Below the pieces are notes generated by a model. The model saw only the letters and a list, made by a program, of their open reading frames with translations, did not search any database and was not told the DNA's origin. This document shows, one piece after another, positions 16,857-40,341 of a DNA stretch of 64,000 nucleotides (its first letter is position 1; every line of letters begins with the position of its first letter). The DNA comes from Chromobacterium violaceum ATCC 12472 (GTDB lineage: Bacteria; Pseudomonadota; Gammaproteobacteria; Burkholderiales; Chromobacteriaceae): NCBI RefSeq assembly GCF_000007705.1, contig NC_005085.1, forward strand, positions 806,001 to 870,000, written 5' to 3'. Position numbers and translations under genes: made by a program.

Positions 16857-17630
16857 GTGGACAGCCTGGAACCCCGAGACGAGTTCGACCTGGGCCTGGA
16901 GCCGGTGGTGGGCAAACCGCGCGACTACCCGGCCGGGAAGGAAACCGAACGCCACCGCCATCCCACCGCCCAGCTCTTGTACGCGGTGGAGGGCCTGATG
17001 CTGGTCGGCACCGAGCGCGGCCAGTGGGTGGTGCCGCCGACGCGCGCCATCTGGCTGCCGATCGGCACCTGGCATCAGGTAAGCATGGTCAGCAAGGTGC
17101 GGATGCGCAGCATCTACGTGCGCGGCGACCGGCTGGAAGGGCTGCCCGCCGATTGCTGCGTGCTGGAGGTGTCGCCGCTGCTGCGCGAGCTGATCGTCGC
17201 CGCGGTGGCGGTGGGGCGCGCCTGCGCGCCTGGCTCGCGCGACGAGAAGGTGATGGATCTGCTGCTGGCGGAAATCGGCCGCGCGCCGGTGCTGCCGCTG
17301 TCGCTGCCGCAACCGTCGTCCGCCGCGCTGCGCCAGCTGTGCGACGTGTGGCTGGCGCGCCCGGACGACGCGCGCGGCGCGGCCGAATGGGCGCGCGAGC
17401 TGGCGCTGGACCCGCGCACGCTGCAGCGCCGCTTCCGCCGCGAAACCGGCCTCAGCTTCGGCCAGTGGCGGCGGCAGGCGAGGCTGATGCAGGCGCTGCA
17501 GCGGCTGGCCTGCGGCGACAGCGTGCTGAAAGTGGCGCTGGACCTGGGTTACGCCAGCCCCAGCGCCTTCGCCACCATGTTCAAGCGCGAACTGGGCGCG
17601 CCGCCGAGCAGCTTCTTCGCCGCCTCGTAA
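16857..17630 (+). CDS. AraC-family transcriptional regulator with N-terminal cupin
   Basis: This 257-aa protein uses a GTG start behind an AAAGAGGCAG ribosome site. Residues 20-110 form a cupin-like sensor (HRHPTAQLLYAVEG, VVPPTRAIWLPIGTWHQV). Residues 170-255 contain the double helix-turn-helix of AraC proteins, with LQRRFRRETGLSFGQWRRQARL and the second HTH ending in ASPSAFATMFKRELG. It is divergent from the MFS pump and probably regulates it and itself. Confidence 0.87.
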   Translation: MDSLEPRDEFDLGLEPVVGKPRDYPAGKETERHRHPTAQLLYAVEGLMLVGTERGQWVVPPTRAIWLPIGTWHQVSMVSKVRMRSIYVRGDRLEGLPADCCVLEVSPLLRELIVAAVAVGRACAPGSRDEKVMDLLLAEIGRAPVLPLSLPQPSSAALRQLCDVWLARPDDARGAAEWARELALDPRTLQRRFRRETGLSFGQWRRQARLMQALQRLACGDSVLKVALDLGYASPSAFATMFKRELGAPPSSFFAAS

Positions 17631-17681: not shown

Positions 17682-19280
17682 TCAATGGCGGATGATGTAG
17701 ATGTCTTTGCTGCGATAGCGTCCCAGCGGATTTTGGCCATAGCCGCCGACATAGGGCTTGACCAGCCTGGAGTCGGAGTATTGCAGCAAGGGAATGATGG
17801 TGTAGTCCTGCATGATGAGGCGATTGGCTTCTGTCAACAGCGCGCTTCTCTGTTCTGGGTCGGGGGACAGGTTGGCGCGCTCGATCAAGTCTTCCGCGGT
17901 CTGGTTGCAACCGCCGGAAACATTCTCGGCGTCGCCGCAGCGGACGATGCCGAGCATGGAAATCGCGTCGTTGTAGTCTGCCGTCCAACCGTTGCGAGCG
18001 ATCTGGAATTGTCCCTGATGCCGCTTTTGCATCAGCTTGGGATAGTCGGTCGATTCCAGCTGGGAATCGAGGCCCAGCTTGCTTTTCCATTCGCTGGCCA
18101 AGTACTCGCTCAAGGTTTTCTGGTAGTCGCTGGTATTGTAAATCAGCCGCAATTGGCGATGCGGCGCCACGCCCGCCTCCTTCAGCAGCTGCCGGGCGGC
18201 TGCCACCCTGTGGGCCATGGACCATGATTGCCATTCATAGGACGAGGGCGCCGCGCCTCTCAAGCCTTGCAGAATCACGCTATATGCCGGGCTTTGCCCA
18301 TCCGCCGTGATGGATTCCGCCAGTTTGTCGCGATCCACCACCATGGACAAGGCCTTACGCACCCGCACATCGCGCAGCAGAGGATCGCGCAGGTTGAGGC
18401 TGAAGTAGCGCAAGCTCAGCAACGGGCTGTTTTTGACCTCGGCGGGGTGAGAGAGTCTCAGCTTGTCGAATTGGCCGGGGGGGAGTTGGAAAACGAAATC
18501 GGTTTTGCCGGAGAAATAAAGCGAGACATCCTGGCCCAAATCCTCTACCGGCAAATAGTTGACTCGCTGCAATACCACCGAGTCGGCATCCCAGTACTGC
18601 CTGTTTTTTTCTAGGACGATACTTTGCCCCGCTGTCCACGCGACCAGCCGGAAGGCGCCGCTGGAAACCAATTTCCCCGGGTTCACCCAGTCTTTTCCCC
18701 AGCGCTGGATCGCATGCCTGGGCACCGGCCCCCATTGCGCATTGGCCAGCAATTCTGGCAAGAACGCCACCGGGTAAGCAGTCATCAGCTCCACCGTATA
18801 GTCATCGACTGCTCGCACGCCGACCTCAGCCAGCGGCATTTTCCCTGCCGTTACGGCCATGCCATTCTTCAGCACGCCGCCAAAGCCGTTCGCGTAAGGG
18901 GAATGCAAAGCCGGATCCAGCAGTCGCTGGATGCTATAGACGACGTCCGCAGCTCGAATGGGGACGCCATCGCTCCAGCGCGCATCCGGCCGTAGATGGA
19001 ATATCCAGGTGTCAGGATTTTTCCGTTCCCATGATACGGCCAGACCGGCTTGCAGGCGGCCGGCATTGTCCATAGCGGTCAGGCCTTCGAATAGGTCGTG
19101 GGTGATCATATTGTCGGGCAGCGCTTCCGCCAGTTGCGGATCCAGCGTCGCAGGCTCCGATCCGTTGCTGCGGATCAGTTCTTGCCGTTCCGCCAAGTCA
19201 GCGCCGGCTGGAATGACGGCGGCCGGTGCCGGCATGGCGATGAGCGTAATAAGAAACAACAGGGATGCTGAGGCCTTCAT
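17682..19280 (-). CDS. OppA-type oligopeptide-binding protein (solute-binding family 5)
   Basis: This 532-aa protein has a signal peptide (hydrophobic to about residue 20, cleavage near PAPA|AVIP) and family 5 motifs: GSEPATLDPQLAE, DLFEGLTAMDNAG, and WSDGVPIRAADVVYSIQRLLDP. It matches OppA/MppA proteins in length and order of motifs. No opp permease or ATPase genes are near; instead it lies behind an MFS carrier (190-bp gap) next to a biosynthetic operon. It may capture a peptide-like product, precursor or signal in the periplasm. Codon use is lower in GC than in the flanking core genes. Confidence 0.8.
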   Translation of the reverse strand: MKASASLLFLITLIAMPAPAAVIPAGADLAERQELIRSNGSEPATLDPQLAEALPDNMITHDLFEGLTAMDNAGRLQAGLAVSWERKNPDTWIFHLRPDARWSDGVPIRAADVVYSIQRLLDPALHSPYANGFGGVLKNGMAVTAGKMPLAEVGVRAVDDYTVELMTAYPVAFLPELLANAQWGPVPRHAIQRWGKDWVNPGKLVSSGAFRLVAWTAGQSIVLEKNRQYWDADSVVLQRVNYLPVEDLGQDVSLYFSGKTDFVFQLPPGQFDKLRLSHPAEVKNSPLLSLRYFSLNLRDPLLRDVRVRKALSMVVDRDKLAESITADGQSPAYSVILQGLRGAAPSSYEWQSWSMAHRVAAARQLLKEAGVAPHRQLRLIYNTSDYQKTLSEYLASEWKSKLGLDSQLESTDYPKLMQKRHQGQFQIARNGWTADYNDAISMLGIVRCGDAENVSGGCNQTAEDLIERANLSPDPEQRSALLTEANRLIMQDYTIIPLLQYSDSRLVKPYVGGYGQNPLGRYRSKDIYIIRH

Positions 19281-19470
19281 AAAAGGGACTCCTGCCAGGC
19301 GAAAATTGTTAGGGAAAGTTTCAATGCTTTCTCACGATTGGAATGGAAGCTGCGCGGTCCAGAAAAGTGGATGGGTGTTATCGCGCAAGCTGATGAGATC
19401 TGTCTGGGCTTGATTAGGGGGGATGCATTTTTCCCGCCAGCACCGCTGGCAGGAAGATCTCTTAGGATGG

Positions 19471-20718
19471 TCAGGCGTGGATGGGCTGGAATCGGTAGGC
19501 AACCCATAGCGATAGCATGAAAAAACACATCATGATCAGCGCGCAGCCTTGCAAGGCGAAGGAGAAGGAAATGCGCGACATATTGCTGACCAAGGGCATG
19601 GAGAGCGCGGTCCCCAGTCCAATTGAAAGCAAACGCAAGGAAGCCATTTTGCCTTTGTCGCTTTCCGAGGCTTGCCGCTGCAGGGCGGTTAAAAGCCAAG
19701 TGATGCTATTCAAGCTGGCGAAACCAATGATGAAAAAAGCGGCGAAGTGCCATAGCGGCGCCGTTGCCAGCGATAGCAGCAAAGTCGAGCCAGCCTGCAG
19801 AAACAGCCAGATGGGAAGCATTTTTTGCGCCAGGGTGCGCCGAGTGAAGAATGAGGCCGCGATCATGCCGATCGCCATCGTTCCTTCCATGGCGGAAATC
19901 GGCCAGCTCGCGCCGGCGTAATATTTAGCCACCAAGGGCACAACCAATACGTTGAGGCTGTAGGACAAAATAAAATCCGCCGAGCAAAGCGCCAGCATGA
20001 CCAGCACGGTGCTCTGTTTGGCCGCTTGTCTCAGCAGATGCAGCCAGCCATGCAGCACTTGTTGCAACAGCGCGCCAGGGCGCCAGCCCGTTTGCGCTGC
20101 ATTGTCCCGCGGGGCTGCAGAAACCGAGGGTTGCCGGGCCATGATCCACGCTGAAATCAGTGAGCCCAATACATCGAAAATCAGCGCGTAAATTGGGCTG
20201 GAGCGATACAGGATGATGCCTAGCAATGCCATGCCGCTCAATACGCCGATTTGAAACATTACCCCTATCTTTGCATTCAATTCGCCCTGTAGTTCGTCAG
20301 GAATATTCAATCCCGTAAATTTGAATAAGGCGCTGCGATGGACGTTGTCTATCAATGCGAGAAAGATCGCGGCCACGGTAATCAGCAGGACCATGCCATC
20401 TATTCTGGAGGCGGCTAGCAGAATGATGATGGCCATGGTCGCGGCGCGGGAGAGATCACATGCCAGATAAACCTTTTTCGCATCGAGATGATCGACCAGC
20501 GGGCCGGCAAAGGGCAAAACACAGATGGCTCCCAAGCCCTGGAAACTCAAAATTGTTGCCATGGCGGTAATGCTGCCAGTTAGTTCGAATAGCAATTGTC
20601 CCATTGCAAGAATGTGCACGCCGACGCCAATGCTGGAGCATAGAATCGCCAAGAGCAGGTTCTTTGCTACTCTGTTTTTGAAGATGGACATAATTTGTAT
20701 ATTTGATGCTATTGGCAT
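19471..20718 (-). CDS. MFS transporter associated with the biosynthetic cluster
   Basis: This 415-aa protein has about 12 transmembrane segments and resembles MFS carriers of the enterobactin-exporter/macrolide-efflux type (short N-terminus, LLFELTGSITAMATI near TM2, DLSRAATMAIIILLA near TM4). The start may instead be the ATG at 20691; neither has a clear ribosome site. It is divergent from the aminolevulinate-synthase-like gene across a 156-bp AT-rich region with palindromic sites, so it is likely co-regulated and exports the cluster product. Substrate is inferred from context only. Confidence 0.7.
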   Translation of the reverse strand: MPIASNIQIMSIFKNRVAKNLLLAILCSSIGVGVHILAMGQLLFELTGSITAMATILSFQGLGAICVLPFAGPLVDHLDAKKVYLACDLSRAATMAIIILLAASRIDGMVLLITVAAIFLALIDNVHRSALFKFTGLNIPDELQGELNAKIGVMFQIGVLSGMALLGIILYRSSPIYALIFDVLGSLISAWIMARQPSVSAAPRDNAAQTGWRPGALLQQVLHGWLHLLRQAAKQSTVLVMLALCSADFILSYSLNVLVVPLVAKYYAGASWPISAMEGTMAIGMIAASFFTRRTLAQKMLPIWLFLQAGSTLLLSLATAPLWHFAAFFIIGFASLNSITWLLTALQRQASESDKGKMASLRLLSIGLGTALSMPLVSNMSRISFSFALQGCALIMMCFFMLSLWVAYRFQPIHA

Positions 20719-20727
20719 TGTGCGGGA

Positions 20728-20739
20728 GTGTAGCTACAC
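20728..20739. promoter_or_regulatory. 12-bp perfect palindrome, possible operator
   Basis: GTGTAGCTACAC reads the same on both strands. It lies in the divergent regulatory region, 9 bases upstream of the MFS start, where a repressor dimer could bind. No regulator gene lies next to it. Confidence 0.4.
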
Positions 20740-20748
20740 GCAGATGGT

Positions 20749-20822
20749 CCGTCAACATAATTATCTAATACGAATTTTATATTTGACGGTACTTGCATTT
20801 GTCATTATTGTGGCGCCGTCAA
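20749..20822. repeat. Three regularly spaced CCGTCAA half-sites in the divergent promoter region
   Basis: The heptamer CCGTCAA occurs at 20749-20755 and 20816-20822, with its exact reverse complement TTGACGG at 20783-20789. Centres are 34 and 33 bases apart, about three helical turns. The middle copy overlaps the predicted -35 box of the biosynthetic operon. This looks like a regulator array, but chance cannot be excluded for heptamers. Confidence 0.45.
20783..20811 (+). promoter_or_regulatory. Predicted sigma-70 promoter of the biosynthetic operon
   Basis: A TTGACG -35 box (20783-20788), a 17-base spacer and a TATTGT -10 box (20806-20811) lie about 63 bases upstream of the first operon gene. 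The region is AT-rich relative to its surroundings. The -35 lies inside one of the CCGTCAA/TTGACGG half-sites, which would allow direct regulation. Confidence 0.5.
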
Positions 20823-20874
20823 TCAGGAAGCGCATGATCGGCAATCCAAAAATCCATATGACGGGAGTCTGTAG

Positions 20875-22086
20875 ATGAGCACTGACAACGCTACGATTGA
20901 GCTGAACTTGGACCGGGAGCTGCGTGTCCTTTTTGAAGATCGACTGACGCAACTTAAGTCGGAAGGCCTGTATCGCAGTTTCATGCCCTGCGAGCACGAT
21001 GCGAGCCATCCTGGCACGACGCGCTATCGGCAACGCCAGGTTGAGGTTTGGTGCAGCAATGACTATCTCGGGCTGAGCCAGGATCCGCAGGTGATCGAGC
21101 GCTTGCGCGAATCCGCGGCCTTGCATGGTTCGGGCACGGGCGGCTCTCGCAATATAGCCGGCACCAGCATCTCCCATGTCGAGCTGGAGCGCCAGTTGGC
21201 GCAATGGCATGGCAAGGAGCAGGCGCTGGTTTTCAATGGCGGCTATACCGCCAATTTCGAGTTTTTGAGCACCTTGATCGCAGCCGTGCCCGACATGGCG
21301 ATATTTTCTGACAGCCTGAATCACCGTTCACTGATAGAAGGCATACGCCGCCATCCGTGCCAGAAATTCATCTTTCCGCACAACGATGTAGAAACGCTGG
21401 AAAAGCAGCTGGCCAGCGTGCCGCTGTCTCAACCCAAGCTGATCGTTTTCGAGTCCATCTATTCGATGGATGGTGATATCGCGCCAATCCAGGTCATTCT
21501 GGATCTGGCGGATCGTTACCAAGCCTGGACCTTCCTGGACGAAACCCATGCCATCGGCCTGTATGGCGGAAGCGGCGCCGGCCTCTGCGAAGAGATAGAG
21601 GAAACCAGGGCCACATTCATTCAAGGCGTATTCGGCAAAGCCATGGGCACCTTGGGCGGCTATATCGCCGGTCCGGCCTCGGTGGTGGATTTTGTCCGCT
21701 CCAGCGCGCCTGGCTTCATCTTCACCACCGCGCTGCCGCAAGCGCTGTTGGACGCGACGCTATGCAGTTTCGAGAGAGTGCGCGAAGACCGGCAATTGGT
21801 GCAGGATCTGCACAGCAACGTCATTTTCTTCCGCGCGCAGCTGGATGCGGCGGGGATCCCTTATCTGCCGGCTCAAAGCCACCTGGTGCTGGTGCCAGTG
21901 GCGGGGGCGGAGCGCATCAAAACCGTCGCTCGTCGCCTGCTGGAAGAGTTCGATATCTATGTGCAGCCGATCAACTACCCTTCCGTGCCGCGCGGAGGCG
22001 AACGCTTCCGCCTGACCGTGGGTCCTCGACGCAGTCATGAAGAGATTCAGCGGTTTGTCGCGGCGCTGAAGCATTGCCTTGCCTGA
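20875..22086 (+). CDS. 5-Aminolevulinate-synthase-like alpha-oxoamine synthase (specialised metabolism)
   Basis: This 403-aa PLP enzyme belongs to the alpha-oxoamine synthase family, which condenses an amino acid with an acyl-CoA and releases CO2. The match to ALAS is close: VWCSNDYLGL (58-67), GTGGSRNIAGT (87-97), SDSLNHRSLIEGI (145-157), SMDGDIAPI and the PLP lysine K255 in VFGKAMG, ending with VQPINYPSVPRGGERFRLT. Betaproteobacteria make heme precursors from glutamyl-tRNA, so an ALAS here points to specialised metabolism, as in C5N-unit pathways. CqsA- or BioF-like activity with another acyl-CoA is the alternative. It is the first gene of a five-gene operon and has a GGGAG ribosome site. 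Confidence 0.82.
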   Translation: MSTDNATIELNLDRELRVLFEDRLTQLKSEGLYRSFMPCEHDASHPGTTRYRQRQVEVWCSNDYLGLSQDPQVIERLRESAALHGSGTGGSRNIAGTSISHVELERQLAQWHGKEQALVFNGGYTANFEFLSTLIAAVPDMAIFSDSLNHRSLIEGIRRHPCQKFIFPHNDVETLEKQLASVPLSQPKLIVFESIYSMDGDIAPIQVILDLADRYQAWTFLDETHAIGLYGGSGAGLCEEIEETRATFIQGVFGKAMGTLGGYIAGPASVVDFVRSSAPGFIFTTALPQALLDATLCSFERVREDRQLVQDLHSNVIFFRAQLDAAGIPYLPAQSHLVLVPVAGAERIKTVARRLLEEFDIYVQPINYPSVPRGGERFRLTVGPRRSHEEIQRFVAALKHCLA

Positions 22087-22108
22087 TTTCTTCCGGAGAA
22101 CTTGCACC

Positions 22109-22951
22109 ATGCGTTTCAATCCGCTTTTCCCGACCATCGGAACCGAGCTGACCGGCGTAACCTTCAATGACATCCTGAGTGATGCTTTGTTTCCTGAATT
22201 GGACCACGCTTTACGCCAGCATCAATTGCTGGTGATCCGCGGTTTGCAGCTGACGCCGGAGCAACAATTGTTGCTGGCGCGGAAGTTCGGCCATCCCATT
22301 CCCTTTGTGATGAGCCGTTACCATCATCCGGATCATCCAGAGTTGATGATATCGTCCAACGAGGTGAAGGATGGCAAGCCGCTGGGGGTGGCTCGGGTCG
22401 GCAATTTCTGGCACCAGGACTCGTCTTTTACTCAAGATCCAGCGGCTTACACCATGTTGTACGGCATCAACATCCCGCCGCGCAGCGGCGACACGCTGTT
22501 TGCCAGTGCGATCGATCTGTATCGCCGCCTTCCCGAAGAGTGGAAGCGACGCATAGCTGGCTTGCAGGCTCGTCATACCGTCAGCAAGCGTTTTCGCATT
22601 CGCGCCGAGCATGTCGGCCTGTCGATTGCCGAACTTAATGAGGTGATCGCCCAGGAGCACCCGACTGTGTTGCATCCCCTGGTGCAGATCGATCAGGACT
22701 CCGGCCAGCCCTATCTCTATGCCTCCAAGGAGTATGTCGACGAGGTGCTCGGGCTGGATCGGGCCAGCAGCGACGAGTTCCTCGATCTGATCGACCGACT
22801 GACGCAGGACCCCGCCCATGTGTATGTCCACCGCTGGCAGCCGGGCGATCTGCTGATTTGGAAAACCCGCACCGCTTTGCATGCCGCCACGGCAGTCGAG
22901 CCCGGACTCAGCCGCACGGTGCATAGGGCAAGCATTGAGGCACCCGTCTAA
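22109..22951 (+). CDS. TauD/TfdA-family Fe(II)/2-oxoglutarate dioxygenase
   Basis: This 280-aa oxygenase shows the facial triad H102-x-D104 (in FWHQDSS) and distal H258 (in TALHAAT), with R269 placed to bind 2-oxoglutarate. Such enzymes hydroxylate, desaturate or halogenate small molecules; the aspartate of the triad argues against a halogenase. The start at 22109 has a GGAGAA ribosome site and follows the ALAS-like gene by 22 bases. Its TAA overlaps the next ATG (TAATG). It likely tailors the product of the operon. Confidence 0.83.
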   Translation: MRFNPLFPTIGTELTGVTFNDILSDALFPELDHALRQHQLLVIRGLQLTPEQQLLLARKFGHPIPFVMSRYHHPDHPELMISSNEVKDGKPLGVARVGNFWHQDSSFTQDPAAYTMLYGINIPPRSGDTLFASAIDLYRRLPEEWKRRIAGLQARHTVSKRFRIRAEHVGLSIAELNEVIAQEHPTVLHPLVQIDQDSGQPYLYASKEYVDEVLGLDRASSDEFLDLIDRLTQDPAHVYVHRWQPGDLLIWKTRTALHAATAVEPGLSRTVHRASIEAPV

Positions 22952-23910
22952 TGCCAGGCATCGCGACACCGTCCATTTGTTATCCGCTGGGCCGGGTTGA
23001 GGCGCGCCAGCTGCACCAGTCCAGCGGCGCGCCGCTGGACGAGGTGCTGAACATCACTCGCTGCGATGGGTTTCCGGCCTTGGGGGAAGGAGAGCAAAGC
23101 TGGGAGTTGGCCGCGTCGGCGGCCCGCGACCTGTTGCGGCGGGAGGGCATTGCTCCCGATCAGATCAGTCATGTCATCTATGCCGGCACCGGCTGTTGGG
23201 ATCGGCCGTTTTGGTCGCCGTCGGCCAAGATCGCTCAGGCCATTGGCATCCATGGCGCCCATTGTTTCGAAGTCACCAACTTTTGCAATGCCGCCTGGAC
23301 GGCCATCAATCTCGCCTGCGACAAGCTAGATAGCGGCCGCGCCGATCTGGTGCTGGTGGTCACCGCCGATCAGCTCAGCCGTCTGGTGGATCGCGACAGC
23401 GCGGATTCGCTTTCTCTGTTCAACTTCGGCGATGCGGCAGCGGCGGTGCTGGTGAAGCGAGGAGGAGAGCGCTACCGCTTGCTGCATAGTGCCATGCGCA
23501 CCGACCCCGGCTGGGTGGATTACTATGCCGGCGCCTGGCGGGATGGCAAGGTTCGAGTCGAGCGGCAGCCGCACCGCCGCGGCTTGGCGCAGGCTTACCT
23601 GGATAATTTCGCGCTCTTGGTCCAGCGCACGCTGGACGCGCTGGGAAGATCGCTGGCCGAGGTGCGCTATCTGCTCATCAATCATGGCGACGAGGACATG
23701 CATCGAAGCTTGCTGGCGCGGCTGGACTTGAGCGAGGAGCGCACGGTTTTCAATTATCACCGGCTGGGGCATATGGGGAGCGCCGATACCTTGATCGCGC
23801 TGGAACAACTCGAGCGCGAGCAGCAGCTGCAGGCCGGAGATCTGATTCTGCTGGCCAGCAGCGCGATGGGCTTTAGCTGGGGCATTACCGCCGTGGAGTA
23901 CCAAGCATGA
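22951..23910 (+). CDS. KAS III-like (FabH-family) condensing or acyl-transfer enzyme with altered triad
   Basis: This 319-aa protein has the thiolase-fold pattern of ketoacyl synthase III. Cys112 in TNFC-NAAW sits at the same position as the FabH nucleophile, and His245 in LINHGDED matches the catalytic His. The Asn that completes the FabH triad (in a GN-T-S-A motif) is replaced by His274 in GHMGSAD, with Asp279 close by. This change suggests acyl transfer, or condensation with a substrate other than malonyl-ACP, as known in Cys-His-Asp type FabH relatives. It is translationally coupled to its neighbours on both sides. Confidence 0.75.
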   Translation: MPGIATPSICYPLGRVEARQLHQSSGAPLDEVLNITRCDGFPALGEGEQSWELAASAARDLLRREGIAPDQISHVIYAGTGCWDRPFWSPSAKIAQAIGIHGAHCFEVTNFCNAAWTAINLACDKLDSGRADLVLVVTADQLSRLVDRDSADSLSLFNFGDAAAAVLVKRGGERYRLLHSAMRTDPGWVDYYAGAWRDGKVRVERQPHRRGLAQAYLDNFALLVQRTLDALGRSLAEVRYLLINHGDEDMHRSLLARLDLSEERTVFNYHRLGHMGSADTLIALEQLEREQQLQAGDLILLASSAMGFSWGITAVEYQA

Positions 23911-25085
23911 AGATCCTGATCATTCACCAAGTGCCTTATCCCAAGATGCAGTACCACTTGGGGCTGGATCATCAGCAGCATGACATCACCTATATCGGCT
24001 ATCCGGCACGGATGGCGGATCTTCCCGCCTCATTGCGGGCGCAACGCCTGTTATTGAATGACGGCGAGGATTTGGCCGACGGCGTGATCCGGCAGACTTC
24101 GCCGCAGGATGGTTACCAGGCGGTGTTGTCTTTGTCGGAGTTCGGCATTCTGCAGGCCTACCGGGTCCGACAGCATCTGGGCGTGCCGGGCGATGACCTG
24201 GCGATGTTGCAGCGCGTGCGCGACAAGGTGGCAATGAAGGCGGCGCTGCATGGCTCGGGCATCGATTTCCCGCGTTTTTTCCCCGCCCAGGGGCTGAGCG
24301 CGCCAGACTGGCAGGGCCAAACCGTGCTCAAGCCCCGGAAAGGCGCCTCCAGCGAGGGCGTCAGGATCTACCCGGCAATGGACCAGGCCTGGGCCGCGTT
24401 TGCTGAGCTGCAGGATGGCGAGGACTGGCAGCTGGAAGAATACATTGAAGGCAGCATCCATCATGCCGATGGCTTGGTGCAAGCCGGCCAGCTGGTCGAT
24501 CTGACCGTCAGCCGCTATCTGAACAAGCCCGTCGATTTCGCCGAGGGCAACCCGCTCGGTTCCTACCAATTGCCCACTGATCCGCGTCATTTCGCCTTCG
24601 CTGTGGACGTGGTGCAGGCCCTGGGCATACGTGACGGTTGCTTGCACCTGGAGTTTTTTGAAACCGCCGATAAGCGGCTGGTGTTCCTGGAAGTGGCAAA
24701 CCGGATGGGGGGCGCCGGCGTGGTCGACGCGCATTGGCGCCATGGCGGCATCCATTTGCCCAGCCACGAAATCGCCATCCGCCTAGGGTTGCCCAGGCCG
24801 CGGCCGCAGCCAGGCAGCGGGCGTTTCCACGGTTGGCTGGTTTTCCCCGGCCATCATCTGGGGGAAGGCGAAGCCGACCTGCGCTTGCCGGAAGACTTGG
24901 CCAGCGATCCCCGCGTGGACCGTTTGCATACGCTGCCGGCCGGGCAGGCGCTCAGCCAGCACATCACGTATCACGAGTGGCAGGTGCCGGTTTTCATCGA
25001 AGCTTCGGATGAAAGCCCGCAGGCCTTGGCGGTTTTTTTCAACGATTGCATGCGACGTATCCAAATAAACAGGAGGCCGATATGA
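23907..25085 (+). CDS. ATP-grasp carboxylate-amine ligase-like protein
   Basis: This 392-aa protein has an ATP-grasp core: a glycine-rich phosphate loop KPRKGASSEGV (142-152), the hinge QLEEYIEG (175-182) and the metal-binding FLEVANRMGGAG (260-271) with E262 and N265. ATP-grasp enzymes activate a carboxylate as acyl phosphate and join it to an amine or thiol, which here suggests amide formation between pathway intermediates or an amino acid. The start overlaps the KAS III-like stop (ATGA) and the stop overlaps the next gene (ATGA). Substrates unknown. Confidence 0.8.
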   Translation: MKILIIHQVPYPKMQYHLGLDHQQHDITYIGYPARMADLPASLRAQRLLLNDGEDLADGVIRQTSPQDGYQAVLSLSEFGILQAYRVRQHLGVPGDDLAMLQRVRDKVAMKAALHGSGIDFPRFFPAQGLSAPDWQGQTVLKPRKGASSEGVRIYPAMDQAWAAFAELQDGEDWQLEEYIEGSIHHADGLVQAGQLVDLTVSRYLNKPVDFAEGNPLGSYQLPTDPRHFAFAVDVVQALGIRDGCLHLEFFETADKRLVFLEVANRMGGAGVVDAHWRHGGIHLPSHEIAIRLGLPRPRPQPGSGRFHGWLVFPGHHLGEGEADLRLPEDLASDPRVDRLHTLPAGQALSQHITYHEWQVPVFIEASDESPQALAVFFNDCMRRIQINRRPI

Positions 25086-26977
25086 CGTATTTCCCAAGCG
25101 ATCTGTTGCTTGCCCTGGCTTCGCTCGACCGCCTGCGTCCGGATTGGGAAGGGCTGCTGGCCCAGCACCATTTGCAGCACCTGGGGCCGATGCTCGATAG
25201 CGCCGCCTTCCATGAGGCGCTGGACGCCATGCTGGATGGGATCGCCCAGTATCCTTTCCAGCCGCATCCGCACAGCGACGATGTCTCGGAATGGCTGCCG
25301 GTCGGGAGCGTGGCGCTGGTGGATGAGTGTGCCGCCAGCACGCTGCGCGGTTTGATCTGGGCGCTGGCTTGGGGCAATGAGGTTCATATCCGCAGCCAAC
25401 GGCCGGACTTTTGGCAGGGACTGGCCGCCTTGCTGAACGCGGGGGGCTGGCCTTTGCCTGGCATCCAGTCCGGAACGGCAGAGGCGCCGCCATCTGCCGT
25501 GGCAGTGTCTGTGCCTGATCTCGCGGCCCAGAGCGGGATGGAGGTCGATGCTTGGCGCGATATCGCCGTGCCGGCGAGCGGCGCCGCGCCGGGCTTGGCG
25601 GCCAGGATGCCAGGCGCGCCTGCCGCATGGTTGCCCCGCGTCTGGCAACTGGATAGACATGATGGCTGGCTGAACCAGCTTTATCGCCGCCGGCACCATC
25701 CCGGCGTGACTTTGGCTCAAGCCCGTGCCGAGCAAGGTGAGGCGGGCGCGCGCGCGCGGCTGGACGCTAAATTGCGCTATCTGGTGCAGCAAGCCAAGCG
25801 CACGCCGCACTACCGCGCGCTGCCGGACATCCGCGGCCTGCAGTCTCTGTCGGATCTGCCCATTTTGGACAAGGCGGCGCTTGAGGCCCAGTCGCTGCCA
25901 TTCAGCCGGAATCTGTGCAGCGGGGACGCGCCCAGCGGCGAGGTGCTGCGCAGCGGCGCCACGTCCAGCCAGCCGCGTTACATCGTCTATTCGCAGACGG
26001 ACTGGAGCAATATGATCCGCGAGGCGGTTCCTTTGTTCTATTCCTTGGGACTGCGGCGCGGCGACAAGCTGATCAATACCCTGTATGGCGGAGCCATGTA
26101 TGGGGGATTGACCACGACCGTCTGCGAGTTTTCCCGCATGCCGCTGGAAACCTACAGCACAGGGCAGGCGATTACGCTGGACACTTTGCTGATGTTGACC
26201 GATTGCTTCCAGGCCAATGCCATCATCGGCATTCCCGCCCTGATCCTGCCCTTGCTGCGCGAGGCCAAGGCGCAGCGGCCGCAGTTGCGGCTGGAAAAAG
26301 TCCTATATGGCGGCACGCCCATGGCGGAGGCCGACAAGCAATGGCTGCGCGAGGAATTGGGCGCGCGAACCATCACCAGCGTTTTGGCTGCCAATGACGG
26401 GGCGCAGATCGGTTACCAGTGCGGCCACTTGCAAGGCAGCCTGCATCACTTGTGCGACGATTACAATCTGCTGGAGATCGTCGATGACGATGGCCATCCA
26501 TTGCCGGACGGCCAGCCGGGCCATATTTTGATCACCAGCCTGCAAAAACAGGAAGGTCCGCTGATCCGTTACCGCATCGGCGATTACGGCCGCATCTTGC
26601 ATCAAGATTGTTCTTGCGGCGCCTCAGGGCGAGTGCTGGACTATATCGGTCGCAGTGATGGCTTGATCAAAATCCAGACCAATACTGTGCTCTACAGCGA
26701 GCTGCTCGAGTCACTGCAGCCATTTGGCGTTTCTCTATTGCAAGTCGAGATTGCGAGCGTCGCGCACAGCGAATCGCTGATTTTGCGGACCGAGTCGCCT
26801 CAGCGCGCCGATGCCGAAGCCATGCGTCTACATCTGTTGGAACGGTTTGAGACCTTGCGCGGCGACGCCGATATTGATGCCCCGCTGCAGGTGTCTGTCG
26901 AGTCGCTGGGCGAGGGCGAGCTGCCCCGCAACAGTGTCAGCGGCAAGGTGAAGCCGGTGATCGACACCCGGGTGTGA
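25082..26977 (+). CDS. PaaK/LuxE-like adenylate-forming enzyme with an extra N-terminal domain
   Basis: This 631-aa protein has two parts. Residues 230-631 resemble phenylacetate-CoA ligase and LuxE-type acyl-protein synthetases: a P-loop-like SGATSSQPRY (291-300), YGGAMYGGL, YGGTPMAEADKQWLREELG, IRYRIGDYGRI, and a CSCGASGRVLDYIGRSD segment near the C-terminal subdomain. Residues 1-200 are extra; WLPVGSVALVDECAAS with the following LAWGNEVHIRSQ faintly recalls the Rossmann part of LuxC/acyl-CoA reductases, but no catalytic Cys is evident. It probably adenylates a carboxylic acid for transfer to CoA or a protein. It is the last gene of the operon. Confidence 0.72.
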   Translation: MTYFPSDLLLALASLDRLRPDWEGLLAQHHLQHLGPMLDSAAFHEALDAMLDGIAQYPFQPHPHSDDVSEWLPVGSVALVDECAASTLRGLIWALAWGNEVHIRSQRPDFWQGLAALLNAGGWPLPGIQSGTAEAPPSAVAVSVPDLAAQSGMEVDAWRDIAVPASGAAPGLAARMPGAPAAWLPRVWQLDRHDGWLNQLYRRRHHPGVTLAQARAEQGEAGARARLDAKLRYLVQQAKRTPHYRALPDIRGLQSLSDLPILDKAALEAQSLPFSRNLCSGDAPSGEVLRSGATSSQPRYIVYSQTDWSNMIREAVPLFYSLGLRRGDKLINTLYGGAMYGGLTTTVCEFSRMPLETYSTGQAITLDTLLMLTDCFQANAIIGIPALILPLLREAKAQRPQLRLEKVLYGGTPMAEADKQWLREELGARTITSVLAANDGAQIGYQCGHLQGSLHHLCDDYNLLEIVDDDGHPLPDGQPGHILITSLQKQEGPLIRYRIGDYGRILHQDCSCGASGRVLDYIGRSDGLIKIQTNTVLYSELLESLQPFGVSLLQVEIASVAHSESLILRTESPQRADAEAMRLHLLERFETLRGDADIDAPLQVSVESLGEGELPRNSVSGKVKPVIDTRV

Positions 26978-27004
26978 AAACGGGCGCCGCATGGCGCCAA
27001 GGCT

Positions 27005-27047
27005 AGCGCCGCGCCGCGCTCCAAAACCGGAAGCGAGGCGCGGCGCT
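27005..27047. terminator. Inverted repeat between convergent genes, possible terminator
   Basis: An 11-bp stem (AGCGCCGCGCC at 27005-27015 with its complement at 27037-27047) encloses a 21-base loop between the end of the biosynthetic operon and the convergent reductase gene. It lacks a T tract on either strand, so it may only be a weak or Rho-assisted end. Confidence 0.3.
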
Positions 27048-27052
27048 TCGCA

Positions 27053-28045
27053 TTAGGCGAGCTTGATCAGCATCTTGCCCAGATTGGCCCCGGCCAGCAT
27101 GTCGACGAAGGCTTGCGCCATATTCTCCAGCCCTTCTCTAACGGTCTGTTGCGGCTGCAGCCGGCCCGACTGCAGATGGGGAACGACAAAAGCCTCCAAT
27201 TCGTCTTGCAGGTGGCGGTAGTTGCGCACCAAAAAACCCTCCAGCCGCAGGCTTTTCCCCACGATGTCGTAGAGATTGCGCGCCAGTTCGGGCGACTCCG
27301 CATGGTTATATTGGCCCACCGCGCCTACCCAGGCGATGCGGCCATGATCGCGGATATGCCGGATCGCCGCCTCCTGGTGCTTGCCGCCGACATTATCGAT
27401 ATAGATGTCGAATCCTTCCGGAGCGGCCTCGCCCAGGGCCTGGGACAGGTCTTGGCTGTGGTAGTCAATGGCAAAATCATAGTCCAGCGTTTCCGTCAGG
27501 TAGCGGGCCTTGGCGGCAGAGCCGGTGCTGCCGATCAGGCGGCCGGCCCCCATCAGCCTGGCCAACTGCGCGATCGCGCTTCCGACGCCGCCAGCGGCCG
27601 CCGAGACGAAGATATCTTCGCCGGCCTGCAGCTTGGCGATGCGGCTAAGCGCCACATAGGCGGTCAGTCCGGTGCCCCCCATGATGCTCAGGAAGGCGCT
27701 GGCGGAGACGCCGGGGTATTCTTTCAGTACCCGCAGCTCCTCCGCCGCCACCGCCGCATGGCTACGCCAACCTTCGCGATGGAAAACCAGCTCCCCCACA
27801 TTCAAACCGCTGCTGCCGGCATCGATGACGCGGCCTATGCTGCGGCCTTCCAGCGGCGTGTGCAATGGCCATTCCTCTTCCAAATCCATGCATTCCCGCA
27901 TATAGGGGTCGACGGATAAGTACAGGTTTTCAATAAGCGCCTGGCCGGTTTGCAGCTTGGGGAGCGCCACTTCTTCGAGCGCGAATAGATCGGCGCTGGG
28001 CATGCCAGTCGGGCGGCGGATCAGATGGATTTCCAAACTCTTCAT
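27053..28045 (-). CDS. CurA-like NADPH-dependent enal/enone reductase (MDR superfamily)
   Basis: This 330-aa protein is a zinc-free medium-chain dehydrogenase of the CurA/YncB/leukotriene-B4-reductase group. It shows NLYLSVDPYMRE near the N-terminus, the dinucleotide-binding AAAGGVGSAIAQLA, the IDYHSQDL pocket segment and DIYIDNVGG. Such enzymes reduce activated C=C bonds with NADPH. It is convergent with the biosynthetic operon and may be a tailoring enzyme or an unrelated detoxification enzyme. I chose the ATG at 28045 over an in-frame TTG at 28060. Confidence 0.82.
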   Translation of the reverse strand: MKSLEIHLIRRPTGMPSADLFALEEVALPKLQTGQALIENLYLSVDPYMRECMDLEEEWPLHTPLEGRSIGRVIDAGSSGLNVGELVFHREGWRSHAAVAAEELRVLKEYPGVSASAFLSIMGGTGLTAYVALSRIAKLQAGEDIFVSAAAGGVGSAIAQLARLMGAGRLIGSTGSAAKARYLTETLDYDFAIDYHSQDLSQALGEAAPEGFDIYIDNVGGKHQEAAIRHIRDHGRIAWVGAVGQYNHAESPELARNLYDIVGKSLRLEGFLVRNYRHLQDELEAFVVPHLQSGRLQPQQTVREGLENMAQAFVDMLAGANLGKMLIKLA

Positions 28046-28235
28046 GCGGTCAGCTTTCAAATTTCAAGGAAATATCACATTATCATAAAAGTGACTGACT
28101 CTCGATCTGTCTGCGATGGTTTCCCTGCCGCGAGCGCGCGGGTCGAATGCGCTCGGCAGGCGGCCCGCCCGGTTTGGTGTGTTGTCGCCAAGACTTTCCG
28201 CAAGCTGCGCGGATCCCGGATGCGGCGCCATCACA

Positions 28236-28916
<681 letters not shown>

Positions 28917-37218: not shown

Positions 37219-38361
37219 ATGACACGCTTGGCCATTGTCCGTCAGAAATACAACCCCGCTGGCGGTGCCGAGCGCTTTGTCAGCCGCGCGCTGGCTGCTT
37301 TGCGCGATAAGGGCGAACTGGAGGTGTCGTTGATCGCGCGCCGCTGGGAGCCTGTGGAGGGCGTCAAGGCTTATCAGGTTGATGGCCCTTATCTGGGCAA
37401 TGTCTGGCGGGATTGGAGCTTTGCCCGGAAAGCCCGGCGGATATGGCTGCGGGAAGGGTTCGATCTTGTCCAGTCGCATGAACGCATACCGGGGTGTGAT
37501 GTTTATCGGGCAGGAGATGGCGTTCATCGTCGTTGGCTGCAACTGAGGCGGCAGGGCATGTCGGCATGGGGCCGGTTTGTATTGTGGTGCAACCCCTACC
37601 ATCATTATATCCAGCGGGCTGAGTCCGAGATGTTCCATCACCCCCGGTTGAAGCGGGTGATCTGCAACTCTCAGATGGTAAAACGCGAGATACAGCAATA
37701 TTTCGGCCTGTCCGATCAGCAGATCGTCGTCATCTACAACGGGGTGGACTTGCAGTCCTTCCATCCAGGCCTTCGTTCCGAGCATAGGCAGGCGATGCGC
37801 AGCCAGTGGGGCGTGCCTGGCGATGCGCCGCTGCTGCTGTATGTCGGTTCCGGCTTCGAGCGCAAAGGCGTGGCGCGCGCCTTGAAGGCATTGCAGGCGA
37901 ATCCAGGAGCGTGGCTGATGGTGGTGGGGGGTGACAAGCGGCTGGCTCGCTACCGCCGATTGGCTGACGAATTGGGCGTGGATGCCCGGGTGGTTTTTGC
38001 CGGCGCGCAAGGAGAGGTCAGGCCTTTTTATGGCATGGCGGATGCTTTCATTCTGCCTACATTGTATGACCCTTTCCCCAACGTTTGCGTCGAGGCGCTT
38101 GCCAGCGGCTTGCCGGTTCTGACAACGCGTCAGTGTGGCGCGGCGGAGTTCGTCAGACAGGGAGAAAACGGTTGGGTATGCGATGCGTTCGACGAGGAGG
38201 CGCTGGCCCGAAGCGTGGCTGAGTGGTTATCCGTTAGCCGGAACTGGCCGGTTCTGGCGGAGGCGGCTCGGCGCAGCGTGGAAGGGTTGAGCTTGGGGGC
38301 GATGGCGGAGCGGATGTTGAACTGTTACCGGGATTTGTTGTCGGTTAGCGCTGTTGCTTGA
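37219..38361 (+). CDS. GT4-family glycosyltransferase (WaaG-like)
   Basis: This 380-aa GT-B enzyme begins with RQKYNPAGGAERFVSRAL and has the GT4 donor-site pattern: YVGSGFERKGVARALKAL (about 200-218), then ADAFILPTLYDPFPNVCVEALASGLPV with the E-x7-E signature. It resembles WaaG-type LPS core glucosyltransferases, which transfer a hexose to heptose. It is the first of a run of surface-glycan genes after the pts terminator. Exact sugar unknown. Confidence 0.82.
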   Translation: MTRLAIVRQKYNPAGGAERFVSRALAALRDKGELEVSLIARRWEPVEGVKAYQVDGPYLGNVWRDWSFARKARRIWLREGFDLVQSHERIPGCDVYRAGDGVHRRWLQLRRQGMSAWGRFVLWCNPYHHYIQRAESEMFHHPRLKRVICNSQMVKREIQQYFGLSDQQIVVIYNGVDLQSFHPGLRSEHRQAMRSQWGVPGDAPLLLYVGSGFERKGVARALKALQANPGAWLMVVGGDKRLARYRRLADELGVDARVVFAGAQGEVRPFYGMADAFILPTLYDPFPNVCVEALASGLPVLTTRQCGAAEFVRQGENGWVCDAFDEEALARSVAEWLSVSRNWPVLAEAARRSVEGLSLGAMAERMLNCYRDLLSVSAVA

Positions 38362-38379
38362 AGAAAGGTTCATGAGTTG

Positions 38380-39303
38380 ATGTTGCTAAGTATCATCATG
38401 CCGGCGCATAACGCTGCAGCTTATCTGGAGCGGACACTGGCGTTGCTGGCACAGCAAATCGCCGGATTGGAGCAGGTGGAGGTGGTCGCGATTGATGATG
38501 CCTCTACCGATGAGACGGCCAAGATACTTGTGGAGTTTGCGCGGACCCATTCCTGGTTGAAGGCGATTTCGGTTGATTTCGCAAATGTAGGTTTGGCGCG
38601 CCAGGCCGGGATCGGCCTGGCGGGTGGACAATATGTGACCTTTCTTGACAGCGACGACGCCTTTTTATCTGGCGGTCTGGCCTGGATGGTGAATGTGCTG
38701 CGTCAGCGCGCGCCGGACTTGCTGATGACGCCGCTGCAGGAAACCGGTCAGCCGTTGGATGGGACGGAAGTTGCAGGATTGTTTCAAGATGTAGTGCCGT
38801 TGTCGACTCAGCAAGCCTGCGATTTGTTTTGCGAGCATCAGCGTTTGCAAGGGCACTTCGCCGGAAAGTGCGTGACGCGTCAGATTCTGCTGCAGCACGA
38901 TCTTGCCGCCATGGAGTGTTACGAGGACATGATGACAACGCCCCACTGGATCGTTGAAGCGAAGTCTATCGTATGGGGCGAGGTGCCTGTCTATGCCTAT
39001 TACAAGCGGCCGGGCAGTCTGTCCGATCGCGGTCAGACATGGCGCTATGGCAAGGAGTACATCAGGGCATTGCAGAGCATAGAGGCTGCGTTTGCAGGGC
39101 GCATCGCTGTCTGGCAGACCGCGCATTTGTGGATCGGCTTTGCCAAAGATCTGCTCAAAACGTCTACAGGACGACAGTTCCTGGATACACAGCCTGCGGT
39201 TGCTGAGAAAATTCAGTCCATTTCGGTATGGAAATATCTTGTGGCTACACAAGTTTCCTGCAAATGGAAAATACGCTTCCTGCGAGTGCGGCTGCGATTG
39301 TAA
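38380..39303 (+). CDS. GT2-family glycosyltransferase
   Basis: This 307-aa GT-A enzyme opens with LLSIIMPAHNAAAYLERTL, followed by VVAIDDASTDET and the metal-binding TFLDSDDAFL (DxD), the standard GT2 layout. The C-terminal third is variable. The ATG at 38380 is preceded by an in-frame TTG; a GAAAGG ribosome site lies 13 bases upstream. Lower GC than the neighbouring core genes is typical of O-antigen or outer-core loci. Acceptor and donor are unknown. Confidence 0.8.
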   Translation: MLLSIIMPAHNAAAYLERTLALLAQQIAGLEQVEVVAIDDASTDETAKILVEFARTHSWLKAISVDFANVGLARQAGIGLAGGQYVTFLDSDDAFLSGGLAWMVNVLRQRAPDLLMTPLQETGQPLDGTEVAGLFQDVVPLSTQQACDLFCEHQRLQGHFAGKCVTRQILLQHDLAAMECYEDMMTTPHWIVEAKSIVWGEVPVYAYYKRPGSLSDRGQTWRYGKEYIRALQSIEAAFAGRIAVWQTAHLWIGFAKDLLKTSTGRQFLDTQPAVAEKIQSISVWKYLVATQVSCKWKIRFLRVRLRL

Positions 39304-39369
39304 CAGTCGGATTCTGACTGGTGTGAATGTAATAAGTGATGGTTCTGCAGAGTGGACACAAGGTATTCA

Positions 39370-40341
39370 ATGACAAAGATTCTGGTGACCGGCGCCGCCG
39401 GTTTTATTGGTCGGGCAGTATGCGAGAAGCTGCTGGAGCGGCGAGATGTTCAGGTTGTCGGAATCGATAATCTGAATGACTACTACGCGGTCGAGCTCAA
39501 GCATGCCAGGCTGGCGACTCTGCAGGGACGGTCCAATTTCAGTTTTCATCGGCAGGACATCGCGGACTGGCCTGCGATGGAACGCTTGTTCTCGGCTGAA
39601 AAATTCGATTATGTCATTCATCTGGCAGCCCAGGCCGGGGTGCGTTATTCGCTGCAGAATCCCCATGCTTATGCGGAAAGCAATTTGTTGGGCTTTACCA
39701 ATGTACTGGAGGCCTGCCGTCGCCATCCAGTCAAGCACTTGGTTTTTGCCGGATCATCCAGTGTTTACGGAAGCGGTTCGGCTGTGCCGTTTTCGGAGGA
39801 TCAGCGAGCCGATCATCCGGTCAGCTTTTATGCTGCCACCAAACGCGCGAACGAGTTGATGGCCGCCAGCTATTCTCATTTGTATCGACTGCCTACGACC
39901 AGCTTGCGTTTCTTTACGGTCTATGGCCCATGGGGGCGGCCGGACATGGCTCCTTGGCTGTTTACCGATGCCATTCTGAACGGTCGGCCGATCAAGGTGT
40001 TCAATCACGGAAAGATGCAGCGTGACTTCACCTATATCGACGATATCGTTGAGGGGGTGGTGCGGGTGATGGAGCACGTTCCGTCCGGCGAGTTGCCGCA
40101 TACGATTTTCAATATCGGCAATCACCAGCCGGTGGAGCTGATGACCTTCATCCAACTGACCGAGAAATATTGCGGCAGAGAGGCAATCAAGGAGTACCTG
40201 CCCATGCAGGATGGTGATGTGCCGATCACTTACGCCGAAACATCTCGTTTGAGAGATGCGGTGGGTTTCACGCCATCCACTTCGCTTGAGGTTGGTATGG
40301 CCCGTTTTGTCGAATGGTTCAGGAATTATCATGCGGTTTGA
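39370..40341 (+). CDS. UDP-glucuronate 4-epimerase-like NAD-dependent epimerase
   Basis: This 323-aa short-chain epimerase has the NAD motif GAAGFIG near the N-terminus, a DNLNDYYAVELKHARL segment characteristic of UDP-glucuronate epimerases, SSSVYG and the catalytic YAATKRANE (YxxxK). It would supply UDP-galacturonate for LPS core or O-antigen. The start at 39370 was chosen over an ATG 18 bases earlier because MTKILVTGAAG is the normal N-terminus. It overlaps the next gene by 11 bases. Confidence 0.85.
   Translation: MTKILVTGAAGFIGRAVCEKLLERRDVQVVGIDNLNDYYAVELKHARLATLQGRSNFSFHRQDIADWPAMERLFSAEKFDYVIHLAAQAGVRYSLQNPHAYAESNLLGFTNVLEACRRHPVKHLVFAGSSSVYGSGSAVPFSEDQRADHPVSFYAATKRANELMAASYSHLYRLPTTSLRFFTVYGPWGRPDMAPWLFTDAILNGRPIKVFNHGKMQRDFTYIDDIVEGVVRVMEHVPSGELPHTIFNIGNHQPVELMTFIQLTEKYCGREAIKEYLPMQDGDVPITYAETSRLRDAVGFTPSTSLEVGMARFVEWFRNYHAV

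Follow-up and report, generated by a model that had tools for sequence, protein, structure and literature searches.

In the ketomemicin pathway, formation of the ketomethylene bond is followed by the action of an ATP-grasp peptide ligase and an exporter. The dapdiamide and bacilysin dipeptide pathways also combine an ATP-grasp amino-acid ligase with a major facilitator superfamily (MFS) exporter, and the former additionally uses a 2-oxoglutarate oxygenase. The arphamenines, reported from a strain of Chromobacterium violaceum, are ketomethylene pseudodipeptides. According to the available text of PMC9239090, stand-alone enzymes of the pyridoxal 5′-phosphate (PLP) superfamily that includes 5-aminolevulinate synthase (ALAS) make the pseudopeptides of ketomemicin and dynaplanin biosynthesis, and the arphamenines are thought to arise likewise. 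Here we describe an eight-gene island of C. violaceum ATCC 12472, located in a 64,000-nucleotide stretch (‘the window’; NC_005085.1, positions 806,001–870,000) whose numbering is used unless a locus or the genome is named. It combines an ALAS-type enzyme with a TauD-type oxygenase, a protein of the β-ketoacyl-acyl carrier protein synthase III (KAS III) fold, an ATP-grasp ligase, a PaaK/LuxE-like adenylating enzyme, an MFS protein, an OppA-like binding protein and a CurA-like reductase.

The reading that best fits this gene set, to which we assign a probability of roughly one half, is that of a self-contained pathway, shared by horizontal transfer, whose product would be a small peptide-like metabolite that is secreted and has an amino-ketone core; it would work, by analogy, like the ketomethylene-type pseudopeptide pathways of ketomemicin and dynaplanin. 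Among small pseudopeptide pathways that centre on an alpha-oxoamine synthase, the cluster is best read as a variant whose KAS III is unusual. With the dapdiamide and bacilysin pathways it shares an amino-acid ligase of the ATP-grasp family and an MFS protein, and it differs in its ALAS and KAS III, neither of which is known from those pathways. By family resemblance, it shares with the ketomemicin type a PLP C-acyltransferase and a peptide ligase in one cluster; in ketomemicin biosynthesis the stand-alone C-acyltransferase KtmB forms the ketomethylene bond (PMC9239090, in the text available). The present enzyme, in contrast, belongs to the true ALAS clade and is accompanied by KAS III, TauD, PaaK-like and CurA-like enzymes, whereas an aldolase and an amidinotransferase are not among the eight island genes. 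The dynaplanin genes dynVWXYZ likewise make up a small cluster that antiSMASH did not detect and that has an ALAS-superfamily enzyme at its centre, but they use an N-acyltransferase, and ATP-grasp, TauD and ketoacyl enzymes go unmentioned in the available text (PMC9239090). Clusters without polyketide synthase, non-ribosomal peptide synthetase or terpene genes can evade automatic detection, as dynaplanin did (PMC9239090, same text).

The pathway is real, conserved and horizontally shared. The ALAS–TauD–KAS core was found in fixed order at 24 of 34 KAS loci (the window included, FabH loci not counted), in Chromobacterium, Burkholderia and four actinobacterial genera. The ATP-grasp gene comes next after the core in 23 of the 24, a LuxE/PaaK-like gene is present in 20, and a CurA-like gene, within the stretch examined, in 16. 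Scanning named genomes yielded 12 KAS relatives, in Chromobacterium sinusclupearum, Kitasatospora, Streptomyces, Amycolatopsis and Streptosporangium, nine of them with the same core order. Among 394 Streptomycetaceae genomes, 16 carry a KAS 63–100% identical to that of S. abikoensis, 14 of them (14/394 genomes) with the core; six more have a KAS at 44–48% identity, and ALAS is absent from all five such loci examined (G407 left out). Searches with the LuxE/PaaK-like protein in 11 genomes added two further clusters. A single match among 72,556 plasmid records, Burkholderia stagnalis YJ-2 plas2, has the gene row CurA-like, hemA, TauD, KAS, ATP-grasp, LuxE-like and MFS, with an SgrR-type regulator containing an SBP_bac_5 domain nearby. 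Among 369 sampled genomes of other Gammaproteobacteria (in the GTDB sense) the island was found only in its own genome, in a sample that misses some carriers, because the Burkholderia plasmid has the cluster.

For the six enzymes, pairwise protein distances are correlated, with r = 0.80–0.96 (14–23 loci; L064, whose ALAS is cut by a contig end, was left out here and from the ALAS tree). The MFS protein is 43–46% identical to those of three Streptomyces clusters, and the CurA-like reductase 58% identical to its counterparts in two Streptomyces clusters and 51% in Burkholderia; distant SBP_bac_5 proteins accompany some Streptomyces, Amycolatopsis and Burkholderia versions. The genes keep their linkage in Chromobacterium, on a Burkholderia plasmid and in actinobacteria, and this cross-phylum linkage strongly supports the small-molecule operon with export put forward in the original prediction. 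A second ATP-grasp-like gene is present in 12 of 22 relatives tested (typed in one, as a circularly permuted ATP-grasp Pfam match below the cut-off), and in two clusters a gene for a tricorn-type peptidase comes after the LuxE/PaaK-like one, at L060:13471–16890 (typed) and L067:13615–16794 (by eye), possibly a clue to target or self-protection. A peptide-like product fits both kinds of gene. Two relatives also have an aminotransferase gene (L066, typed; L073, by eye).

The ALAS scores 441 bits against TIGR01821 (cut-off 338.55), which predicts synthesis of 5-aminolevulinate from glycine and succinyl-CoA. In a maximum-likelihood tree of 39 rows, including 11 of the 13 non-cluster Streptomycetaceae matches over the cut-off (two were without a locus), the 23 cluster ALASs fall together in a single group (support 99/100), to which neither the three rhizobial HemA proteins nor the 11 other Streptomycetaceae ALASs belong; the tree has long branches, and the placement of Burkholderia and L081 is unsure. 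In PMC4525017, Thr83 is described as placing the carboxyl of the succinyl group and steering which amino acid is used, and cyclizing ALASs are marked by Ser83, Leu/Val149 and Ser365. In all 23 cluster enzymes Ser replaces both Thr83 and Thr365, and residue 149 is Ile; seven of the 11 other Streptomycetaceae ALASs carry all three cyclizing markers, and two, L079 and L080, share Ser-Ile-Ser with the cluster. Having two of the three markers tested, the cluster enzymes are not clearly of the C5N type, and they may possibly have an altered choice of amino acid or acyl-CoA.

The KAS adopts the FabH fold in its predicted model (predicted local distance difference test score, pLDDT, 80.9), but in place of the FabH-type Cys112-His244-Asn274 it has Cys112-Asn244-His274, with the catalytic His and Asn exchanged. 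Cys-Asn-His is found in the window KAS, 24 kin and Burkholderia, in contrast to Cys-His-Asn in 16 of 16 readable FabHs (six of 18 FabH loci, L024, L025, L027, L029, L032 and L035, were not counted). Model residues 270–274 have pLDDT values under 50, so the placement of His274 rests on the sequence alignment. This KAS III subclass with exchanged catalytic residues offers directly testable chemistry. Related proteins, 64–66% identical to the cluster type, occur in the Streptomycetaceae loci L055 (neighbours named by eye) and L062 (typed) beside FkbH-type, acyl carrier protein (ACP)-like, acyl-CoA-dehydrogenase-like and AMP-ligase genes; L062 also encodes a thioesterase fused to S-adenosylmethionine synthetase. 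In S. cinnamoneus (L012:9989–17518) and S. olivoreticuli (L013:10001–17558), another KAS III from this subfamily, with Thr244 and His274, lies beside clavam-like genes named by eye as CEAS, beta-lactam synthetase, PAH and clavaminate synthase.

The TauD-type protein keeps the iron and 2-oxoglutarate residues in alignment, in the pattern HxD..H..R, the cofactor motif of TauD proteins. The nearest solved relatives of the ATP-grasp protein are the L-amino-acid ligases 4wd3 (residues 72–273) and 3vot (37–273 of 392), with E values of about 3e-8; it is predicted, plausibly, to form a peptide bond. The PaaK-like protein matches 4r1l (E value 1.7e-23) over residues 248–600 of a 643-residue reading, and the Foldseek match of its model is PaaK. 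Its N-terminal ~230 residues have no Pfam match, and likeness of this part to an aldehyde-dehydrogenase domain was seen only by eye; because the model is poor (pLDDT 56.5), this part is left without assignment. The open reading frames (ORFs) lie where the original prediction placed them, and its family names were borne out by the profile scans, with the ATP-grasp match near threshold (27.4 bits, cut-off 27) and the CurA-like reductase below the curated cut-off of NF058644 (260 against 440 bits).

In the proposed pathway, the ALAS would decarboxylatively condense glycine (or a bulkier amino acid permitted by the Ser83 pocket) with succinyl-CoA or a related acyl-CoA to give 5-aminolevulinate or a 5-substituted form, a ketomethylene mimic of a dipeptide. 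5-Aminolevulinate itself mimics Gly-Gly in this way and is taken up by the dipeptide permease of Escherichia coli. The later steps are ones that we infer: the PaaK-like enzyme would activate a carboxylate, the KAS III with its exchanged active site might transfer or condense the activated acyl group, TauD could hydroxylate or desaturate the unit, and the ATP-grasp ligase would attach an amino acid. The MFS protein may then export the product, the OppA-like protein may bind the dipeptide-like product or a precursor, and the CurA-like reductase could reduce an enone, for tailoring or self-protection. TauD oxidation together with an alkenone reductase suggests that the product contains an enone or a hydroxy ketone. 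The ALAS product, amino-acid ligase, MFS export and OppA-like recognition make a coherent pseudopeptide scheme, which could lead to a new family of peptide-like inhibitors.

Several observations weigh against this scheme. The window OppA is only 21–26% identical to the OppA proteins near actinobacterial clusters, and its link to the pathway is weak for that reason. Four Streptomyces loci (L008, L009, L010 and L015) have no LuxE/PaaK-like gene, and the best match elsewhere in the genomes of L008, L009 and L015 is merely 33–35% identical; L010 also has no ATP-grasp gene, a methyltransferase gene occupying that position. The LuxE/PaaK-like and ATP-grasp proteins are thus not strictly required for the core. 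Close KAS kin without ALAS adjoin an FkbH/ACP-type gene set in L055 and L062, and more distant kin stand beside clavam-type and aldo-keto-reductase genes; the role of the KAS in the pathway is a guess. The substrate choice of the ALAS cannot be read from sequence alone.

Among other explanations, a C5N pathway, in which a cyclizing ALAS would yield 2-amino-3-hydroxycyclopent-2-enone for ligation to an acyl chain as in asukamycin, seems unlikely. It would draw on the adenylating enzyme and amide ligase of the cluster and on Ser83 and Ser365, two cyclizing markers shared with the secondary-metabolism ALASs of C5N clusters (the asukamycin-type triad, PMC4525017; limocrocin, PMC11727611; both in the text available). 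For limocrocin, which is a C5N polyketide, the cluster combines polyketide genes with those for TauD, ALAS and MFS proteins, so the pairing of ALAS with TauD is not unique, and the same available text cites ‘atypical KAS III homologues’ for asukamycin (PMC11727611); both points raise the chance of a C5N pathway slightly, and the limocrocin cluster also counts against the pseudopeptide scheme. Position 149, however, is Ile rather than Leu or Val in all 23 cluster ALASs (although L079 and L080 are also Ser-Ile-Ser), and these make up a clade that excludes the seven Streptomycetaceae ALASs bearing all three markers. In the available text of PMC4525017, the hemA group that resembles the C. violaceum gene falls outside the cyclizing ALASs, with no C5N operon adjoining. 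The C5N gene triad is absent here: beside hemA stand genes for TauD, KAS, ATP-grasp and PaaK-like proteins instead of the aminolevulinate-ligase and amide-synthase pair, and no polyketide synthase gene was seen in the typed or labelled parts of the stretches. The C5N unit entertained in the original prediction is therefore weak, with limocrocin as a counterpoint, whereas its amide ligation and amino-ketone unit are plausible.

The chance of an arphamenine pathway, with the ALAS-type enzyme joining L-arginine to 2-benzylsuccinyl-CoA, is quite small: the bond type would be right, the genus is the same, and activation of an aromatic acid could fall to the PaaK-like enzyme, but the eight island genes include no benzylmalate-type synthase, such a pathway would leave TauD, KAS and ATP-grasp without a task, the cluster occurs in just 2 of 19 genus genomes, and the enzyme scores as a true ALAS that keeps the Arg21 position, presumably succinate-binding. 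Comparably improbable is an isonitrile pathway with TauD as a ScoE-type oxidase/decarboxylase, whose usual partner genes are not among the families found in the general scans. ScoE is the nearest solved structure (E value 2.3e-38) and the best NCBIfam match of TauD, yet the scores (148.4 bits in the window, 144.3 in Kitasatospora) lie far under the NF049937 cut-off of 400 bits. At the aligned positions, Tyr101 and Arg195, which ScoE requires for its product, are kept, but Tyr97 is Val, Lys193 is Arg and Tyr96 is Phe, a change that abolished the ScoE product (PMC7949033, in the text available). Least credible is supply of 5-aminolevulinate for heme, or a remnant gained by horizontal transfer that plays no part in a pathway, as the available text of PMC4525017 suggests for such hemA genes. 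In favour are that published view and a TIGR01821 score typical of a true 5-aminolevulinate synthase, but the genome encodes glutamyl-tRNA reductase (GluTR), so the cluster ALAS is not needed for heme, and heme supply was rejected; the linkage kept across phyla and an ALAS ratio of non-synonymous to synonymous substitution rates (dN/dS) of 0.034 speak against this reading as well.

The 2015 study reported actinomycete hemA genes closest to that of C. violaceum, with shared flanking regions (‘Blue branch I’, legend of Fig. 7A; PMC4525017), which is very probably the present locus. In its available text, the context of these genes was judged not conserved and without a link to secondary metabolism; the wider sampling contradicts this, because the context is kept across phyla. 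The label ‘non-cyclizing’ given there agrees with our tree, although the cluster sequences carry Ser83. The description of the cluster as new stands for the most part: no assigned product for the ALAS/TauD/KAS/ATP-grasp/PaaK-like set was found in open-licence literature on enzyme combinations, but the shared hemA locus had been published (PMC4525017). The pseudopeptide pathway offers a likely function for hemA genes left unexplained in that work. Going further, and more doubtfully, the cluster enzymes might be secondary-metabolism ALASs of a third class, serving neither heme nor C5N formation and feeding a new family of ketomethylene peptide antimetabolites in which a thiolase-like Cys-Asn-His KAS III would form a kind of bond so far described for no KAS III; as part of this tentative idea, the family would be common to actinobacteria and two proteobacterial genera.

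The five plus-strand genes form one tightly joined unit, as proposed, with the joins read directly in the sequence (Table 1): the ALAS and TauD genes are 22 bases apart, TauD and KAS meet in TAATG at 22949, and ATGA overlaps join KAS to ATP-grasp at 23907 and ATP-grasp to the PaaK-like gene at 25082. The MFS and OppA-like genes are divergent from this unit and the CurA-like gene is convergent with it, in agreement with the earlier description of the flanks. The unit to consider is the whole eight-gene island, from 17630 to about 28240, and extends beyond these five genes. The MFS start is probably 20691 rather than 20718, because in C. sinusclupearum the longer reading is interrupted by a stop at its eighth codon. 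Promoter and terminator scans stayed at chance level, and CviR-type binding sites numbered 60 against 68.6 expected.

Table 1 Features of the island, in window positions
Feature	Position	Strand	Basis
OppA-like periplasmic solute-binding protein, 532 residues	17682..19280	-	PF00496 256 bits
MFS exporter, 406 residues	19471..20691 (ORF opens at 20718)	-	PF07690
ALAS-type alpha-oxoamine synthase, 403 residues	20875..22086	+	TIGR01821 441 bits; alignment, tree
TauD-type Fe(II)/2-oxoglutarate oxygenase, 280 residues	22109..22951	+	PF02668; nearest solved structure ScoE
KAS III-fold protein, 319 residues, Cys112-Asn244-His274	22951..23910	+	KAS III domains; FabH fold in model
ATP-grasp ligase, L-amino-acid-ligase-like, 392 residues	23907..25085	+	nearest solved structures 4wd3, 3vot
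PaaK/LuxE-like adenylating enzyme, 631 residues	25082..26977	+	4r1l match; N-terminal ~230 residues without Pfam match
CurA/PTGR-like NADPH alkenone reductase	27053..28045 (alternative TTG start 28060)	-	PF16884; NF058644 260 bits
Genomic island, eight genes	17630..about 28240 (right edge 28233-28246)	.	between AraC-type regulator gene and WrbA-like gene

The island edges are defined by blastn against four relatives with a short site, in which the match stops at 17623–17629 and resumes at 28233–28246. The AraC-type gene is present in 18 of 19 Chromobacterium genomes (the present one included), and the AraC–WrbA gap measures 20–1,390 bases in 15 of the 19; it widens to 10.6 kb in the genome studied here, to 10.8 kb in that of C. 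sinusclupearum and to 37.6 kb in genome G026. Across 61 genomes of the family, a KAS of the cluster type occurs in two, at an identity of at least 89%, the remaining matches being distant KAS III/thiolase-type proteins with E values of 3e-23 or weaker. The drop in GC described in the original prediction was confirmed: the island genes have 0.53–0.63 against 0.67–0.73 in four flanking genes, and their GC content at third codon positions (GC3) is 0.65–0.77 against 0.91–0.93. Between the two Chromobacterium islands, dN/dS for all eight genes runs from the ALAS value to 0.135 (LuxE/PaaK-like), with 0.081 for the MFS gene (start 20691). The low GC3 and low dN/dS thus mark an island that is foreign in composition, yet under purifying selection. 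No shared 9-base repeat was found at its ends. In G026 (C1:293000–332400; L043, L044) the same AraC–WrbA junction is filled by ~37 kb of other DNA, and the site may therefore be an insertion hotspot.

Elsewhere in the genome, a second ketomethylene cluster was sought among three other ALAS-like matches, all of which are explained otherwise. One is a Kbl-like gene beside a threonine-dehydrogenase-like gene (both by eye) and another a bioF-like gene in a biotin-type region (by eye). The third, a PRK07505-type alpha-oxoamine synthase, adjoins MFS exporter and biotin-dependent carboxylase genes near a VgrG gene (L109:1656–7665; about 22655–28664 of the genome) and is possibly part of another small pathway. 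A second, resistant porphobilinogen synthase, which might have pointed to the target, was looked for, but the genome yielded a single copy; this sole gene (L110:5640–9349; about 1785639–1789348 of the genome) lies just upstream of Kbl-like and threonine-dehydrogenase-like genes (both by eye). Within the window, a second low-GC stretch at 37219–41617 (0.54–0.59) holds glycosyltransferase, epimerase and O-antigen-ligase-like genes and is probably a surface polysaccharide locus.

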